Shown here: in pieces, positions 5,360 through 12,857 of the stretch
Layout: each line of letters starts with the position of its first letter
Numbering within the stretch: the first letter of the stretch is position 1
Assembly (NCBI GenBank): GCA_902569055.1
Contig: CACFSU010000001.1
Coordinates: forward strand, 43,919-107,918
Length of the DNA stretch: 64,000 nt
Direction: 5' to 3'
Source of the DNA: an uncultured Pelagibacteraceae bacterium
GTDB lineage: Bacteria > Pseudomonadota > Alphaproteobacteria > Pelagibacterales > Pelagibacteraceae
Translations under genes and position numbers: made by a program
Notes under the pieces: model-generated
The model's database searches: none
The model's input: only the letters and a program-made list of their open reading frames with translations
Told to the model about the DNA's origin: nothing

Positions 5360-7084
5360 ATGGAAATATATAAAGATCTTTCAACTCCAGCTTCACAAGA
5401 ATTTGAAAAATTACTAAATAGCCAACTTTCAAAAGCAAGCATAGAAGAAGGAAAGATAATTGAGGGTAAAATTAATAAGATTACTGAAAAATTTGTATTT
5501 CTGTTTGTAGAAGGGCTTAAAAGTGAACCAGTTTTAGATATAAATGAATTAAAAAGCTTGGGCTTAACCGACAAAATAAAAGTTGGCGAAACAATCTCTG
5601 TATTGCTAGAAAAAATTGAAGATAAAAATGGTGAAATTCTTGTATCAGCAATCAAAGCACAAAAAATTAAGGGTTGGAATAAATTAGTTGAAGCCTATGA
5701 AAAAAATGAACCCGTTATAGGTAAAATTACATCAAAATGTAAAGGTGGTTGCATTGTCGAACATGTTGATACAGGTTCATTAATGTTCTTACCAGGATCT
5801 CAAATAAGTGACAAACCTCTTAAAGATATTAGTCACTTAATGAATGAGCCTCAAAAATTTGCTTTAATAAAATTAGATAAAATTAGAGGCAACGCTTGTG
5901 TTTCAAGAAAAGAAATTATTTCCTCATTTAAAAAAGAAGATAAAGCAAAAATAATAGAGAAATATAAAATTGGAGATATAATTAAAGGTGCAGAAGTGAA
6001 AGGTTATAGTTCTTTTGGATGCTTTTTTAATGTAAATAACGAGCTTGATGTATTAGTTCACTTACAGGAAATTTCATATTCTAGAGTAAATCACCCAGAT
6101 GAAGTATTCAATATCGGAGAAAAACATAATTTAAAAGTTATATCTGTTGATAAAGAAAAACTACAAGTTGGTTGTTCTGTAAAACAATTATCTCCAGATC
6201 CTTTTGAGCATATTGAAAACTATAAGCTTAATAAAATTTATAAAGCTAAAGTAGTTAAAATTATGGATTTTGGTGCTTTTTGTGAATTAGAACCTGGTTT
6301 AACAACTTTACTTCATTCAAGTGAACTAAGCTGGACTAAAAAAAATATTACAGCTAAAAAAATGTTTAAAATAGGAGATGAAATAGATTGTATAATTACT
6401 GAAATAGATAAAGATAAGAGAAGAGTTGCTATTTCCCACAGACTAACACAAGAAAATCCATATGAAACCTTTGAAAAAAAATATCCAGTTGAAACAATAG
6501 TTGAAGGTGAAGTAGTTAATAAAAATGAATATTCATTATTTGTTAAAGTAAAAGATTTAGATATAGATGCTTTCTTACATTGTAATGACTTAACCTATCT
6601 AGATAATGGCGAGGAAGAGTTAGCAAAATATAAAAAAGGTGACAAAATAAAAGTCAAAGTTTTAGAGATTAAAGTTTCTGATCAAAAAATAAGAGTAGGT
6701 TTAAGACAAACACAGCTAGATCCATTGGATTGGTTTAAAGATAAAAAGGTTAATCAAATAATTACTGTTAAAATTATCTCAACTGATAACAAAGGTTTAA
6801 CTGTAAGACCTGAAGGTTGCGAAATGGACTTCCAAATTAAAAAGTCTCAAATAGCAATTAATGCTGCAGATGCAAGACCTTCAAGGTTTACAGGTGGTGA
6901 AAGAATAGATTGTGCTATAGCAGAATTAAATTTAGATAAAAGAAAAGTAACTTTAAGTATAAGACTCCTTGAAGAACTGGCTAAAAAAGAAGCTTTAGAA
7001 AAATATGGAGCAGAAGACTCTGGTAAAAACTTACCTTTCTCCTCTTTATCTGAAGATTTGAAAAAAAAAGAGGACAAAGACTAA
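5360..7084 (+). CDS. rpsA: 30S ribosomal protein S1
   Basis: Binds mRNA on the small subunit and promotes initiation on weakly structured or SD-poor messages. Six S1/OB repeats are visible in order, starting with IEGKINKITEKFVFLFV, VIGKITSKCKGGCIV, IKGAEVKGYSSFGCFF, YKAKVVKIMDFGAFCEL, VEGEVVNKNEYSLFVKV and ITVKIISTDNKGLTV. Length 574 aa fits the six-repeat proteobacterial form. Repeat 3 reads FGCFFNVNNELDVLVH, somewhat off the usual YGAFVDLGGVDGLLH consensus. It heads the run ihfB-pyrF-trpFBA-accD-folC. Confidence 0.95.
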   Translation: MEIYKDLSTPASQEFEKLLNSQLSKASIEEGKIIEGKINKITEKFVFLFVEGLKSEPVLDINELKSLGLTDKIKVGETISVLLEKIEDKNGEILVSAIKAQKIKGWNKLVEAYEKNEPVIGKITSKCKGGCIVEHVDTGSLMFLPGSQISDKPLKDISHLMNEPQKFALIKLDKIRGNACVSRKEIISSFKKEDKAKIIEKYKIGDIIKGAEVKGYSSFGCFFNVNNELDVLVHLQEISYSRVNHPDEVFNIGEKHNLKVISVDKEKLQVGCSVKQLSPDPFEHIENYKLNKIYKAKVVKIMDFGAFCELEPGLTTLLHSSELSWTKKNITAKKMFKIGDEIDCIITEIDKDKRRVAISHRLTQENPYETFEKKYPVETIVEGEVVNKNEYSLFVKVKDLDIDAFLHCNDLTYLDNGEEELAKYKKGDKIKVKVLEIKVSDQKIRVGLRQTQLDPLDWFKDKKVNQIITVKIISTDNKGLTVRPEGCEMDFQIKKSQIAINAADARPSRFTGGERIDCAIAELNLDKRKVTLSIRLLEELAKKEALEKYGAEDSGKNLPFSSLSEDLKKKEDKD

Positions 7085-7106
7085 TTACTAATTAAAGAAG
7101 AATAAA

Positions 7107-7397
7107 TTGGCTATTGTAAAATCAAAGCTTTTAAGACAACTCTCTCAAAATTATCCTAATTTTTTAAAAAAAGATCTCGAAAAACTTACTGACATCATTT
7201 TAAAAGAAATCAAAAAAACACTTAAAAGAAAAGAAAGGGTTGAGCTTAGAGGTTTTGGAATATTTTCAACAAAAACTCAAAAGGCAAGAATATCTAGAAA
7301 CCCCAAAACTGGAGAAAAAGTTAATACCCCAGAAAAGAAAATAATTCACTTCAAAATGGCTAAAGACTTGTTTAAAAAATTAAATAATAATGAATAA
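7107..7397 (+). CDS. ihfB: Integration host factor subunit beta
   Basis: A DNA-bending nucleoid protein of the HU/IHF family. ELRGFGIF and ARISRNPKTGEKVNTPEKKIIHFKM are the arm and DNA-contact segments typical of IHF beta, including the RNP intercalating tip. Length 96 aa is normal. The start codon is TTG at 7107, with a purine-rich AAAGAAG a few bases upstream. No ATG fits, and the protein aligns from the first residues (AIVKSKLL). Its position directly after rpsA is the classical rpsA-ihfB arrangement. The 3' end overlaps pyrF by 8 bases. Confidence 0.93.
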   Translation: MAIVKSKLLRQLSQNYPNFLKKDLEKLTDIILKEIKKTLKRKERVELRGFGIFSTKTQKARISRNPKTGEKVNTPEKKIIHFKMAKDLFKKLNNNE

Positions 7398-8064
7398 AAA
7401 TATTTTTGTTGCTTGTGATGTTTCAAGTCAAAAAGAAATTTTAGATTTGCTATCTAAAATACATGAAGATATTTCTGGAATTAAAATAGGTCTTCAATAT
7501 ATAACAAAACATTCACCTGAAGAAATTAGAGAATTAAGTAAATTCAATAAGCCTATTTTTTACGATGGTAAATTTTTTGATATCAAAAATACACTGATTA
7601 AATCTATTAAATCTCTTAAAGAATTAAATATAAACTATGCTTCAGTTCATATATTGAATGGTTTAGACGCCCTAAAAGCTGCTAATAAAGTATCTAATGA
7701 AATAAATATTAAACTTCTTGGTGTATCTGTTTTAACAAGTTTTGATAATACAGAATTAGCTCAAATGGGATTTAAAGATCATGTGGAAAAACAAGTTTCA
7801 AGACTAATAAAGATTGCTTATCAAGCGGGTTTATATGGTGTTATTTGTAGTCCTCTTGAAATTAAAATGATTAAAAAAATTGCTCCAAATATTAAATGTT
7901 TTACTCCAGGAATTAGACAGGATGAAAATAAAAATGATCAGAAAAGAACTATGAATGCAAAACAAGCTCTAAAAGAAGGAAGTGATTGCTTAATAATAGG
8001 TAGACCAATTACAATTGGTAATCCAAAAATGAATATTAAGAAAATTTTATCATCTTTAAATTAG
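7390..8064 (+). CDS. pyrF: Orotidine 5'-phosphate decarboxylase
   Basis: Converts OMP to UMP, the last step of de novo pyrimidine synthesis. Motifs: VACDVSSQKE at the N-terminus, IKIGLQY, the catalytic Asp-Lys-Asp array in FYDGKFFDIKNT (about residues 56-67), and the phosphate-binding CFTPGIRQD near residue 175. Length 224 aa is normal for the short bacterial group. It overlaps ihfB by 8 bases, and its TAG stop is followed immediately by the trpF ATG, suggesting translational coupling. Confidence 0.92.
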   Translation: MNKNIFVACDVSSQKEILDLLSKIHEDISGIKIGLQYITKHSPEEIRELSKFNKPIFYDGKFFDIKNTLIKSIKSLKELNINYASVHILNGLDALKAANKVSNEINIKLLGVSVLTSFDNTELAQMGFKDHVEKQVSRLIKIAYQAGLYGVICSPLEIKMIKKIAPNIKCFTPGIRQDENKNDQKRTMNAKQALKEGSDCLIIGRPITIGNPKMNIKKILSSLN

Positions 8065-8688
8065 ATGAAATCTAAAATTTGTGGAATTTCTGATACAAAA
8101 ACTTTAAAGTTTTTGACTAACCATCCTTATCCGCCAGAATTTATAGGTTTTATAGTTAATTATCCTAAATCAAGAAGATATGTGGATTTCCAAAAGTTAA
8201 AAAAATTATTATCTATTAATAAAAAAAAATCATTATACGTTGCAGTTTTAGTTAAACCTAATTTAGATATTTTAGAAAAAATTAAAAATTTACCTTTTGA
8301 TTATTATCAAATTTATGATTGCAAACCAAATCAAATAAAAACATTAAAAAAAAAATATAATAAAAAAATTATAGTTGCATTTACAATTAAAAATTTTGAA
8401 GATATTAAAAAATACTCATCATACAAAAACATCTCAGATATTTATCTTTTTGATAGCAAGGGATACGAAAAAAGCCTATCTTTTGATCATTCTCTAATTA
8501 AAAATATCAAATTAGATAAAGAAGTTATGTTGGCAGGTAATATTAAGATCTATGATAATCTTGAAAATTTTAAAAAAATAGCAGATATTATTGATATATC
8601 TGGTGGAGTGGAAACTTCTGGATTAAAAGATATATCCAAAATAGAAATTTTTTTAAAAAAAATTAAAAAATTAAATGATAAAACTTAA
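8065..8688 (+). CDS. trpF: Phosphoribosylanthranilate isomerase
   Basis: Third step from anthranilate in tryptophan synthesis (Amadori rearrangement). KICGISD near the N-terminus contains the catalytic Cys. IGFIVNYPKSRRYV, LFDSKG, and the C-terminal IDISGGVETSGLKD phosphate-binding block are recognisable. Length 207 aa fits. Several usual consensus positions differ: the family VQLHG region reads YYQIYDCKP and LAGGL reads LAGNI. The divergence of this operon is therefore not confined to trpA and trpB. It abuts pyrF and overlaps trpB by 14 bases. Confidence 0.87.
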   Translation: MKSKICGISDTKTLKFLTNHPYPPEFIGFIVNYPKSRRYVDFQKLKKLLSINKKKSLYVAVLVKPNLDILEKIKNLPFDYYQIYDCKPNQIKTLKKKYNKKIIVAFTIKNFEDIKKYSSYKNISDIYLFDSKGYEKSLSFDHSLIKNIKLDKEVMLAGNIKIYDNLENFKKIADIIDISGGVETSGLKDISKIEIFLKKIKKLNDKT

Positions 8689-9913
8689 AAAAAATATCCC
8701 ATTAATAGATCAGCATAATAAACTAGGTTTTTGGGGCGGAAAATTTGGTGGAAGTTTTATCCCTGAAACTTTAAAAAAACCTATTGAAGATCTAACAAAA
8801 GAATTCCAAAAACTTAGAAAAGATAAAAAATTTGTTAAAAAAAGAGACTTCTATTTCAAAAACTATGTTGGTTCTCCCACTTCTTTAGTAAAATTAAAAA
8901 ATTTATCTAAACATCTAAAAGGAGCTCAGATATGGGCAAAAGTTGTATCTGAAGCTAACGGTGGCGCCCATAAAATCTACAACGCCACTGTCCATGCTTT
9001 AATTTGTAAAGCTATGGGTAAAAAATATATAGTTGGAGATACTGGAGCTGGTTATGCGGGAAAAATGTTGAGTATGGCTGCAAAAAAGTTTGATCTAAAG
9101 TGTAAAATTTTTATGGGCGCAAAGGATATTAAAAGGCAAAAGCCAAATTGTGATGCTATGAGGAAAAATGGAGCAGAGATTGTACCAGTTTATTCTGGAA
9201 GTCAAACTTTAGTTGATGCAGTAAGTGAATGTATGAGATACTGGGTTTCTAATTGTGATAATACTCATATGTGTGTTGGTTCAACGGTTGGGCCAAATAT
9301 CTTTGTTAAAATTTGTGGATGGAGCACTGCTCAAATCTCAAGAGAACTTAAATCTCAAATTAGAAAAGAATTCAAAAAAATACCTAAAAGGATTAAATTA
9401 ATAAATTGTGTAGGAGGTGGTAGTTCAGCGTATGGTTTTTGGAGTGAATTTATTGATTACGATAAAAAACAAATTGAACTTATTGGTGTAGAGGCAGATG
9501 GTCCTAAAAAATCAAAACTTCATGCAGCTCCTTTAAGTAGAAATTCAAAAATTGGAATATTACATGGTGCAGCTTCATATGTTTGTCAAAATAATGAAGG
9601 TCAAATTAAAGAAACTGAGTCGATAAGTGCCGGGTTAGATTATCCTGGAGTAAGTCCTATCCATTGTTTTTTAAAAGATACTAAAAGAGCAAGATATACC
9701 AATGCTACTGATGAAGAGGCATTAAATGCATATAAAATAGTTACAAAATTTGAAAAACTAAACCCAAGTTTAGAACCTTGTCATGCATTTGCAGAAGCAA
9801 TCAAAATTGCTCCTAAACTTAGTAGAGACACTATTATCATAGTTAATTCATGTGGAGATGCCAAGAAAGATAGAGATATTTTAAAACAAAGGTTGGAAAA
9901 AGATAATGACTAA
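8675..9913 (+). CDS. trpB: Tryptophan synthase beta chain (divergent active site)
   Basis: A PLP fold-type II enzyme expected to condense indole with serine. The PLP lysine is in GGAHKIYNA, the phosphate loop is CVGGGSSAYG, and SAGLDYPGVSPIH and PSLEPCHAFAEA match the family. Length 412 aa is normal. Several near-invariant positions differ. The ETGAGQHG loop reads DTGAGYAG, so the catalytic Glu (beta Glu109 in the Salmonella enzyme) is Asp. GTAAGPHPYP reads GSTVGPNIFV. SGRGDKD reads SCGDAKKD, placing Cys where the Ser contacting the pyridine nitrogen usually lies. Operon position between trpF and trpA argues for tryptophan synthesis, but a shifted activity is possible. Confidence 0.85.
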   Translation: MIKLKKNIPLIDQHNKLGFWGGKFGGSFIPETLKKPIEDLTKEFQKLRKDKKFVKKRDFYFKNYVGSPTSLVKLKNLSKHLKGAQIWAKVVSEANGGAHKIYNATVHALICKAMGKKYIVGDTGAGYAGKMLSMAAKKFDLKCKIFMGAKDIKRQKPNCDAMRKNGAEIVPVYSGSQTLVDAVSECMRYWVSNCDNTHMCVGSTVGPNIFVKICGWSTAQISRELKSQIRKEFKKIPKRIKLINCVGGGSSAYGFWSEFIDYDKKQIELIGVEADGPKKSKLHAAPLSRNSKIGILHGAASYVCQNNEGQIKETESISAGLDYPGVSPIHCFLKDTKRARYTNATDEEALNAYKIVTKFEKLNPSLEPCHAFAEAIKIAPKLSRDTIIIVNSCGDAKKDRDILKQRLEKDND

Positions 9914-10709
9914 CTCATTAATTTGGCAATCATTTAAAAAAACAAGAAATGAAAATAGACCTGCCCTTTTGACCTATACAGTTGCAGGGGACAATACCAA
10001 AAAGAAATCATTAGAAATTTTAAAATCAATTTCAAATCATGCAGATATCTGTGAGCTAGGTTTTCCTCACAATACACCAATTGCTGATGGAGGTCAGATA
10101 CAAACAAGTGCTTACAGAGCAATAAAAAATGGTATTAAAATTAAAAATGTATTTTCAATAGTAAGTCAATTTAAAAAAACTAAAAAAAATAAACCAATTA
10201 TTTTGATGGGTTATTATAATATAGTTTATCAATATGGTGAAAATAAATTTATTCAAAAATGTAAAAAAACAAAGGTGGATGGGTTAATTATTGTTGACCT
10301 GCCCCATCCAGAAAATAAACTTTTTGCTTCTAAATGTAAAAAAAAAGGAATTAATTTTATACAATTAGTATCTCCAACAACTTCTAACAATAGACTAAAG
10401 CAAATTATTAAAGACTCACATGATATGATTTATTATATCTCTATGCTTTCAATAACTGGTCAAAAGTTAAAAGTGTCTCCAAAAAATATAATTAGAAGAT
10501 ACAATAAAATTAAAGCTTTAGATAAATCAAAAAATATTGTCATTGGATTTGGAATAACTGAAAAAACTATAAAATCTTTAAAAAAAGCAGATGGATTAGT
10601 AGTAGGAAGTGCTATTTGCAAGGAAATTACTAAGTCTATTATTAAGAGACAAAATATTGTCACAAATGTTACTAATATAGTTAGAAGATTAAAAAATAAA
10701 ATTAAATGA
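9906..10709 (+). CDS. trpA: Tryptophan synthase alpha chain (divergent interface loops)
   Basis: A TIM-barrel lyase that releases indole from indole-3-glycerol phosphate. The catalytic Glu and Asp of the family are present in CELGFPHNTPIADG (about residues 45-57). YISMLSITG is loop 6, and FGITEK and VVGSAICKE close the phosphate site. Length 267 aa is normal. Loop 2 normally reads PFSDPLADG, and the Asp of FSDP contacts the beta chain; here it reads PHNTPIADG. SRAGVTG is SMLSITG. These changes accompany changes in the neighbouring TrpB. The gene overlaps trpB by 8 bases and accD by 4 (ATGA). Confidence 0.9.
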   Translation: MTNSLIWQSFKKTRNENRPALLTYTVAGDNTKKKSLEILKSISNHADICELGFPHNTPIADGGQIQTSAYRAIKNGIKIKNVFSIVSQFKKTKKNKPIILMGYYNIVYQYGENKFIQKCKKTKVDGLIIVDLPHPENKLFASKCKKKGINFIQLVSPTTSNNRLKQIIKDSHDMIYYISMLSITGQKLKVSPKNIIRRYNKIKALDKSKNIVIGFGITEKTIKSLKKADGLVVGSAICKEITKSIIKRQNIVTNVTNIVRRLKNKIK

Positions 10710-11635
10710 ATTGGATAACAAAAATTATTAAAGCTGGAGAAAAAATAAAAACTGCTTTTCACAAAAGAGCAACTAAAGAAGAAATAGAAAAAAGTGATTG
10801 GACATCATGTTGTAAAGGTCCAATATTAAAAAAAGATTTAGAAAAAAATTTGTGGGTTTGTCCTGATTGCAACAAACACCATAGAATTAAACCTAACCAA
10901 AGATTTGATATTTTATTTGGTCAAAACAATTATAGAACATTAAAAACCCCAATTCCTAAAGATGATCCTTTAAACTGGACTGACTCAAAATCTTATAAAG
11001 ATAGATTAAAAAATGCTCGTAAAAAAACTGGTTTAGATTGCGGAATGATGGTCGTCTGCGGAAACATCAACAAGATTGAAGTTACTGCAGTTGCTTCAGA
11101 TTTTGATTTTTTGGGAGCCTCTATGGCATCTGCAGAAGGAGAAGCTTTTCTATATGGAGTTCAGCATGCAATCGAACATCAAACTCCATTTATTTGTATA
11201 AGTGCTGGTGGAGGAATGAGAATGATGGAAAGTTTGATTTCTTTATCTCAAATGACAAGAACCACTCTCGCAATTAATGAGTTAAAAAGTAATAAGTTGC
11301 CATATATAGTTCTAATTACTGATCCCACAGCTGGTGGAATTACAGCTTCATATGCTATGTTAGGAGATATCCATTTGGCTGAGCCTGGCTCATTAATAGC
11401 ATTTGCTGGAAAACGAGTAATTCAAGGAACTGTTAAAGAAGAATTACCAGAAAATTTTCAAACCAGTGAGTACGTCCAGAAAACTGGATTTGTTGATTTA
11501 ATTGTAGAAAGAAAAGATTTAGTCAAAAAAATTGGAACTTTATTATCAATATTGTTAAAGAAAAATTCTGCTATAAACACTGAAGAAAATGAAACTTCAG
11601 AAGATAATCAATCGCTTACAAAAACTGCATCCTAA
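10706..11635 (+). CDS. accD: Acetyl-CoA carboxylase carboxyltransferase subunit beta
   Basis: With AccA it transfers the carboxyl group from biotin to acetyl-CoA, committing carbon to fatty acids. The carboxyltransferase core is clear from DFDFLGASMASAEGE, ISAGGGMRMMES, TDPTAGGITASYAMLGD and GKRVIQGT. The N-terminal zinc ribbon is unusual: the expected CxxC-x15-CxxC reads CC-x15-CxxC (TSCCKGPI ... VCPDC), so the first Cys is displaced next to the second. The C-terminal tail overlaps folC by 47 bases. Length 309 aa is in the normal range. The order trpB-trpA-accD-folC is common in proteobacteria. Confidence 0.93.
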   Translation: MNWITKIIKAGEKIKTAFHKRATKEEIEKSDWTSCCKGPILKKDLEKNLWVCPDCNKHHRIKPNQRFDILFGQNNYRTLKTPIPKDDPLNWTDSKSYKDRLKNARKKTGLDCGMMVVCGNINKIEVTAVASDFDFLGASMASAEGEAFLYGVQHAIEHQTPFICISAGGGMRMMESLISLSQMTRTTLAINELKSNKLPYIVLITDPTAGGITASYAMLGDIHLAEPGSLIAFAGKRVIQGTVKEELPENFQTSEYVQKTGFVDLIVERKDLVKKIGTLLSILLKKNSAINTEENETSEDNQSLTKTAS

Positions 11636-12857
11636 AGAAATAGATCTTTCTCTAGATCGAATAAAAAATCTTTGTAATAAATTAGATAATCCACAAGACA
11701 AAATTAATTCAATTTCAGTTGTTGGAACAAATGGAAAATATTCAACAATTCAAGCTATGTACGCAATTTTAAAGGAAGCAAATTATAAATGTAATATTTA
11801 TACCAGTCCACATATTAAAAAAATTAACGAAAGATTTGTATTTAATAATCAAGAATTAAATGATGATGAGCTAGCTAATCTTCTAGAAAAAATCGAAAGA
11901 GTAAATGAAAATCTACCAATTACCTTTTTTGAAATACTAACTTCTGCTTATTTCTATAAAGCTGCCGAATTTCCCCAAAATATCAACCTTATAGAAACTG
12001 GTTTATTTCATCGTTTTGATGCAACAAATATATTAAAAAAAAACCTTGCTAGTGTTGTAACCTCAATTGGCTTAGACCACTTAGATTGGCTGCCTAAGAA
12101 TGAAAAAACAATTACAAGAATAATATTTGAAAAAACTTCGACCCTTTTAAATTCTAATATCATTATTGCAAGTCAAAGCACTAATGAAATTTCTAATCAA
12201 ATTAAGGAAGTGATTTTAAACAACTCTTCTAAAAAATTCTTTTTTAATGAAGACTATAATTGTTCACTAAGTGAAAATAATTTTCATTATTACGAAGATA
12301 AACGTGGTGGAATTAAACTTCCCACACCAAATGTTTATGGTCAATTTCAACTTGAAAATATTTCAACTGCAATTGCAACATTAAGATCTATAGAGCTGTT
12401 AAATATAAATGAAGACTGCATTAAAAAAGGAATAACTAAAATAAACAATATTGCACGATTACAAGAAATAACTAAAGGTAATCTTAAAGATTTAGTTAAA
12501 AATAATAGGTTATTCGTAGATGGAGCTCATAATCAACTTGGTGCAAAAGTTTTAAATAAATTTTTAGAAAGTTTCAATTGTGATAAACATATAATTCTTG
12601 GAATGATGGCTAACAAAGATCACCAAAAATTTATGAGTTACTTTAAAAATATCTCTACCTTAACCACTATAGATATTCCAAATCAGCCTAACTCAATTAA
12701 TGGAAAAGAATTAAAAGATAAGCTGAATATTTTCAAAAATATTCAATATAAAGAAAACATTTTTAATGCTATCAAGTCAATTCCGGTCAAAGAAAATGAT
12801 ATGATATTAATTACAGGATCTTTATATCTAGCTGGAGAAATTTTAAATTTAAATTAA
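11589..12857 (+). CDS. folC: Folylpolyglutamate / dihydrofolate synthase
   Basis: A Mur-ligase-like ATP enzyme that adds glutamate to dihydropteroate and to folates. SVVGTNGKYST is the P-loop (about residues 44-54). Central blocks include IETGLFHRFDATN and VTSIGLDHLDWL, and the C-terminal domain shows FVDGAHNQ and ILGMMANKDH. Length 422 aa is normal. The ATG at 11589 lies inside the accD tail (47-base overlap in another frame), but the first residues (LQKLHPKEIDLSLDRI) look like genuine FolC sequence, so I keep this start. Its stop shares TTAA with the convergent trxA stop. Confidence 0.93.
   Translation: MKLQKIINRLQKLHPKEIDLSLDRIKNLCNKLDNPQDKINSISVVGTNGKYSTIQAMYAILKEANYKCNIYTSPHIKKINERFVFNNQELNDDELANLLEKIERVNENLPITFFEILTSAYFYKAAEFPQNINLIETGLFHRFDATNILKKNLASVVTSIGLDHLDWLPKNEKTITRIIFEKTSTLLNSNIIIASQSTNEISNQIKEVILNNSSKKFFFNEDYNCSLSENNFHYYEDKRGGIKLPTPNVYGQFQLENISTAIATLRSIELLNINEDCIKKGITKINNIARLQEITKGNLKDLVKNNRLFVDGAHNQLGAKVLNKFLESFNCDKHIILGMMANKDHQKFMSYFKNISTLTTIDIPNQPNSINGKELKDKLNIFKNIQYKENIFNAIKSIPVKENDMILITGSLYLAGEILNLN

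Follow-up and report, generated by a model that had tools for sequence, protein, structure and literature searches.

A window of 64,000 nucleotides from an uncultured Pelagibacteraceae bacterium (GCA_902569055.1, contig CACFSU010000001.1, positions 43,919 to 107,918) carries a trpB gene (8675..9913; this and all other window features are on the + strand) whose product, the β subunit of tryptophan synthase, has Asp in place of the catalytic Glu109. We call the SAR11 TrpB/TrpA type with Asp109 the D-type, and two other trpBA types found at the same locus X and Y. It is highly likely that the D-type is the working tryptophan synthase of SAR11 with a variant active site, and that trpBA moves as a matched cassette at a fixed locus. 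The natural Glu109Asp substitution is real and holds across the clade, the pocket and subunit interface have changed along with it, and the enzyme is very probably functional. The more surprising part of the finding is that complete trpBA pairs have been swapped repeatedly at a single locus.

Active site and subunit interface of the D-type

The trpB open reading frame is intact (412 amino acids), and its product shows 88-92% identity to its nearest relatives; the named TrpB relatives belong to the Pelagibacteraceae (SAR11; 86-92% identity), and the D-type TrpB of the relative genome G700 is 86% identical. The product scored 400.7 bits against TIGR00263, above the trpB equivalog cut-off of this NCBIfam profile (392.45), and 95.7 bits against the TrpB2 profile TIGR01415, far under its cut-off (518.85), and is thus not a TrpB2. 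Glu109 is a textbook, near-universal catalytic residue of tryptophan synthase. This hallmark of the characterised enzymes stands outside the definition of the TrpB1 profile, and because it is Asp in the D-type, we class the window TrpB as a variant and not as canonical TrpB1.

Residue positions are given in E. coli numbering, assigned by an alignment of 126 D-type rows (three of them the window's own gene) with E. coli TrpB, PfTrpB, LBCA, 14 alphaproteobacterial references, and X, Y, and TrpB2 sequences; the best solved structural relatives are LBCA-TrpB (5ey5) and PfTrpB (1v8z). An initial annotation of the window, made by eye, had proposed that the catalytic Glu is Asp and that the canonical ETGAGQHG loop is altered, and both proposals are borne out. 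D122 (codon 9038..9040) occupies the E109 position in the alignment and in a pattern scan, and Asp is found there in 126/126 D-type rows, while every reference sequence and every X, Y, and TrpB2 row has Glu. In this indole/carboxylate loop, Q114 and H115 are Y127 and A128 (9053..9058). The roles of Glu109, His115, the Gln114-Asn145-Arg148 network, and Arg141-Asp305 have been described for TrpB (PMC9512447), and the hydrogen-bond partner of Q114 in this network, R148, is A161 in the window (9155..9157).

The replacements Q114Y/M, H115A/F, R148A/S, N236S, and K167V extend across the D-type, and N89Y is another shared change; the last of these, together with R148A, K167V, N236S, and TrpA D56T, had been missed in the initial annotation. 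The window TrpB itself carries D109, Y114, A115, A148, V167, S236, D379, A380, and K381, and it keeps K87, R141, N145, G232-S235, D305, E350, K382, and D383. The lysine that binds pyridoxal 5'-phosphate (PLP), K100 (E. coli K87; 8972..8974), is intact, as had been stated at the outset, and invariant in all rows, and GPHPYP is indeed replaced by GPNIFV (9290..9307). Both residues of the R141-D305 closure switch are conserved in the D-type (D305 is D322 in the window, 9638..9640). The PLP phosphate loop (GGGSS, canonical GGGSN; 9413..9427) was called intact, and its GGGS is present, the fifth residue being Ser instead of Asn. The loop SCGDAKKD (canonical LSGRGDKD; 9848..9871) is altered as claimed, its unusual changes being R379D, G380A, and D381K, but S377C is ordinary, with Cys in 12 of the 14 alphaproteobacterial references. 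S377C was therefore not taken to indicate that the PLP chemistry is altered, Cys being common in the class.

The changes reach the partner subunit. The salt bridge between αD56 and βK167 couples the subunits in Salmonella tryptophan synthase. In the window, K167 is V180 (9212..9214), Val being found in all D-type TrpB rows, and αD56 is T57 of TrpA (10074..10076), a position that is T, C, or A across the D-type. The coupling salt bridge is thus gone on both sides (K167V in TrpB with D56T/C/A in TrpA), and its loss may affect the coupling of the subunits. The Y-type likewise pairs T with L. The corresponding residues are E with K or R in the X-type and D with K in the references. The window TrpA keeps both of its catalytic acids, αE49 and αD60.

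Asp109 is the rule in SAR11 and was seen in no other sampled Pseudomonadota. An 83-base pattern (H-K...[D/E]-T-G-A-G, from H86-K87 through positions 109-113) was scanned in 399 sampled Pseudomonadota genomes, and the Asp form occurred in two, both SAR11, with the Glu form in 379. Within the order, D-type-like TrpB was found in both families (8/9 sampled genera, 118 genomes); of the two genomes seen from the ninth genus (family f2), one has a canonical TrpB (L035) and the other an X-like TrpB (L037). Common occurrence of these residues in functional TrpB of the same clade had been named at the outset as evidence against anything unusual here. They are in fact the clade norm, so the window trpB does not stand out in its clade, while the clade as a whole does so among Pseudomonadota. 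The D-type forms a single clade on a long stem in quick trees, calculated without bootstraps, of both TrpB (1.15 changes/site) and TrpA (1.25), and the Asp109 set probably has a single origin, on that stem.

Function of the D-type enzyme

The window trpB lies in the order trpF-trpB-trpA. trpF (8065..8688; PF00697, 80.7 bits) is the upstream gene of the cassette region, and the start of trpA (9906..10709) overlaps the end of trpB, providing a coupled partner of the D-type whose product scored 215.9 bits against TIGR00262 (cut-off 102.35). Three PALP proteins were detected in the window's genome, which is 75% complete, and one of them is TrpB; a second, canonical trpB was searched for in this 75% complete genome and none was detected. 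TrpC, a pathway enzyme, was detected there. The dN/dS (nonsynonymous to synonymous substitution rate) ratio of trpB against three relatives is 0.04-0.05, indicating strong purifying selection. Candidatus Pelagibacter ubique HTCC1062, which has a single trpB belonging to the SAR11 cluster, was cultured in an artificial seawater medium containing glycine, glycine betaine, pyruvate, dimethylsulfoniopropionate, and vitamins, in which no tryptophan is listed (PMC5069961). Judging from the sole TrpB detected in the genome, the strong purifying selection, and the growth of Ca. P. ubique without tryptophan, the D-type is most likely a functional, rebuilt tryptophan synthase, neither dead nor repurposed, and it very likely synthesizes tryptophan.

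We propose that serine is converted to the aminoacrylate on PLP bound to K100, just as other TrpB proteins do it, and that Asp in place of Glu may supply the carboxylate for the activation of indole at N1. The pocket would be repacked around the shorter Asp side chain by Y/M114, A/F115, A/S148, and S236, with the R141-D305 closure switch retained and the αD56-βK167 salt bridge dispensed with on both sides. The residue set is held by purifying selection and moves as a matched unit with the cognate trpA at a fixed locus, most likely via homologous exchange, X and Y trpBA types taking its place in some genomes. Compensation, which had been one of the suggestions made at the outset, is supported in that Asp109 comes together with other changes of the pocket and the interface as a fixed set.

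Several points weigh against this reading. The Salmonella βGlu109Asp laboratory mutant reportedly has altered specificity and activity, as the title of the 1992 study by Brzovic and colleagues has it, so Asp109 may be costly unless compensated; the same effect is why we propose compensation by the other pocket changes. The salt-bridge argument counts only about two independent losses (D-type and Y-type). The AlphaFold model, made with 29 close relatives, had a mean pLDDT (predicted local distance difference test) of 61, too poor to show the pocket, and was not used.

Alternatively, the D-type could be a repurposed β-replacing enzyme whose nucleophile is not indole, or could act mainly as a serine deaminase. 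The title of the Salmonella mutant study, with its altered specificity, would fit, as would the change of all the indole-pocket residues H115, Q114, and GPHPYP. However, the protein is the sole TrpB detected and lies between trpF and an intact trpA whose product is over its cut-off and retains both catalytic acids; TrpC is present, and the host grows without tryptophan. We therefore find repurposing quite improbable, and the new substrate envisaged in the initial annotation is unsupported, although the D-type may have a side activity. Still less plausible is a pseudoenzyme that solely activates TrpA to release indole, like plant TSB-like, in which the same Glu is changed to Ala, Ser, or Pro (PMC12727527): Asp retains the carboxylate, D305 is kept in the D-type, plants keep a canonical TSB alongside whereas SAR11 keeps no canonical TrpB beside the D-type, and the D-type does not belong to the plant-type TSB-like group.

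Exchange of trpBA at one locus

Among 300 genomes of the genus Pelagibacter, a TrpB match at E <= 1e-20 was found in 258. Most of these TrpB proteins are D-type, 12 are X (34-39% identity), and 8 are Y (28-29%), so that ~8% are non-D. The X and Y types occupy the D-type locus with the same neighbor genes. As judged from the shared gene order of D, X, and Y genomes, the exchanged cassette is flanked on the left (5360..8064) by rpsA (5360-7084), ihfB (7107-7397), and pyrF (7390-8064), and on the right (10706..12857) by accD (10706-11635) and folC (11589-12857). The types of the two subunits always match (124 D-D, 11 X-X, and 9 Y-Y pairs, with no mixed pair). For example, an X locus (L131) compared with a D locus (L054) shows 98% identity in rpsA, 94% in ihfB, 90% in pyrF, and 60% in trpF, only 35% in trpB and 29% in trpA, and then 97% in accD, 95% in folC, and 99% in trxA. 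The junctions are sharp; DNA identity drops from ~90% in pyrF to ~50% by trpB and is back at 80-95% where accD begins.

The types do not follow the backbone. An rpsA tree covering 58 loci shows 21 changes of trpB type against 20.7 with shuffled labels, and the types are thus as scattered as chance. In the TrpB and TrpA trees, D and Y are single clades and X is one group, with an X-like pair (L123/L037) beside it. In a set of loci chosen to include X and Y, which also served for the pair identities, the synonymous divergence (dS) of trpB is ~0.3 (up to 0.33) in two X pairs with an rpsA dS of 1.1-1.3, and 0.06 in one Y pair with an rpsA dS of 1.6. Because the dS of trpB is far below that of rpsA in these three pairs, the X and Y cassettes appear to have spread more recently than the backbones diverged. 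In addition, D-type trpB is 79-80% identical between genera whose rpsA is only 38% identical, consistent with transfer among SAR11. In rpsA-close pairs, trpBA falls below 45% identity far more often than the neighbor genes do in this sample enriched for X and Y; because the set was chosen to include these types, its replacement rates are not natural frequencies.

Deep alleles are found among close SAR11 genomes in pyrF (window 7390-8064), accD and folC (10706-12857), and trxA too, folC being <45% identical in 7.6% of rpsA-close pairs. The stretch therefore seems to recombine gene by gene, and trpBA may not be unique in it.

The exchange might be driven by selection for alternative trpBA types, e.g., by escape from an inhibitor or toxin aimed at tryptophan synthase, which would keep the types at intermediate frequency. 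The persistence of three deep types at one locus in one genus, the recent spread of X and Y cassettes (trpB dS of 0.06-0.33 vs 1.1-1.6 for rpsA in the three tested pairs), and the excess of deep trpBA divergence (<45%) over the neighbors in rpsA-close pairs of the X/Y-enriched sample would all be in keeping with this. Against it, general recombination and drift may suffice, given the deep alleles in folC, accD, pyrF, and trxA, and neither an inhibitor or toxin nor a phage carrier turned up. We hold this explanation to be rather doubtful. Equally tentative is the wider idea that SAR11 keeps ancient, catalytically different D, X, and Y tryptophan synthases as exchangeable alleles, whose switching would be selected by a marine inhibitor or a competitor toxin. 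An origin of the X and Y loci as chimeras of assembly is hardly credible and largely refuted: many assemblies are single-cell or metagenome drafts whose contigs often end in the trpBA locus, but the 12 X and 8 Y genomes were found independently in the survey, one X-type genome (G012) consists of one contig of 1,343,202 bases and G171 of three contigs, and the trpB and trpA types are never mixed.

Carriers and donors were looked for. No D, X, or Y trpB was found in phages or viruses of IMG/VR. No X donor was identified, the best sampled alphaproteobacterial TrpB being <=52% identical, nor was a Y donor, with identities of <=39% among sampled TrpB proteins and <=36.5% in plasmid records. Two records of the plasmid collection (NZ_CP119142.1 and NZ_CP119140.1) are 2.17 million bases long, are named Neisseria gonorrhoeae, and are chromosome-like by size.

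The X and Y types have features of their own. X TrpB is over the trpB cut-off (406.6 bits) and Y TrpB is under it (314.2 bits), while the TrpA proteins of both pass theirs. X TrpB is without D305, having Q, T, or N instead, and Y TrpB has a rebuilt loop with S113, M114, and N or H at 115. X TrpA has Glu at the position of the catalytic Asp60 in 11/11 (e.g., L036:6981-7799), as does a divergent D-type (L034); in X this is the mirror image of the catalytic-acid length swap in D-type TrpB.

Loss of trpBA, and hence auxotrophy, was considered for genomes without a TrpB match and rejected, since 8 of the 11 checked are also without rpsA and the contigs of the other three end inside the locus. These contigs (L173, L174, and L175, from G024, G052, and G737) stop within ihfB-pyrF-trpF, and the locus is often absent from assemblies. 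In one locus of a draft genome (L153, G076:C11:8000-19500), stops split trpB, rpsA, and accD, which looks like sequencing error and not gene decay. Some SAR11 genomes also have a TrpB2 away from trpFBA (L040:5386-6747 and L041:4802-6193), with no trpA in the flank examined.

Relation to known systems and significance

The D-type shares with canonical TrpB1 (TIGR00263; E. coli/Salmonella and P. furiosus) the fold family, the PLP Lys, the G232-S235 loop, E350, R141-D305, and the operon with trpA, and differs in Asp for Glu109, in the replaced Q114, H115, R148, and N236, and in the absent K167-αD56 salt bridge. The Salmonella mutant (Brzovic et al., 1992, Biochemistry 31:1180) has the same substitution in an otherwise canonical pocket, to which the D-type adds other changes. 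Plant TSB-like is likewise a TrpB homolog altered at this Glu, but unlike the D-type it has lost the carboxylate, is a paralog beside a working TSB, and only activates TSA (PMC12727527).

The only literature that we found on a natural E109D TrpB or on SAR11 trpBA exchange is that of Kagan et al. (2008; PMC2395257), who recognized SAR11 trpB1 as a distinct, early-splitting cluster, judged it functional, and concluded that the single trpB of HTCC1062 must be functional. The D-type is the same cluster; in the portions of that paper available to us, the catalytic residues, interface changes, and in-place X/Y swaps are not described, and the catalytic residues of the SAR11 TrpB cluster seem to be unreported.

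Gene displacement in situ is known from operons, where foreign homologs replace genes and leave gene order unchanged. The SAR11 case resembles it in that replacement keeps the order, and differs in that what is exchanged, repeatedly and within one genus, is an enzyme of two subunits whose catalytic residues differ between the types.

No group of bacteria in the ocean is more abundant than SAR11, and a very large natural lineage thus does without Glu109, apparently via a joint rework of the pocket and the subunit interface. The D-type is a test case from nature for the rebuilding of an allosteric enzyme and gives new starting points for the engineering of TrpB. The exchange of trpBA pairs that differ in catalytic residues allows study of what maintains competing versions of a core biosynthetic enzyme among ocean bacteria.
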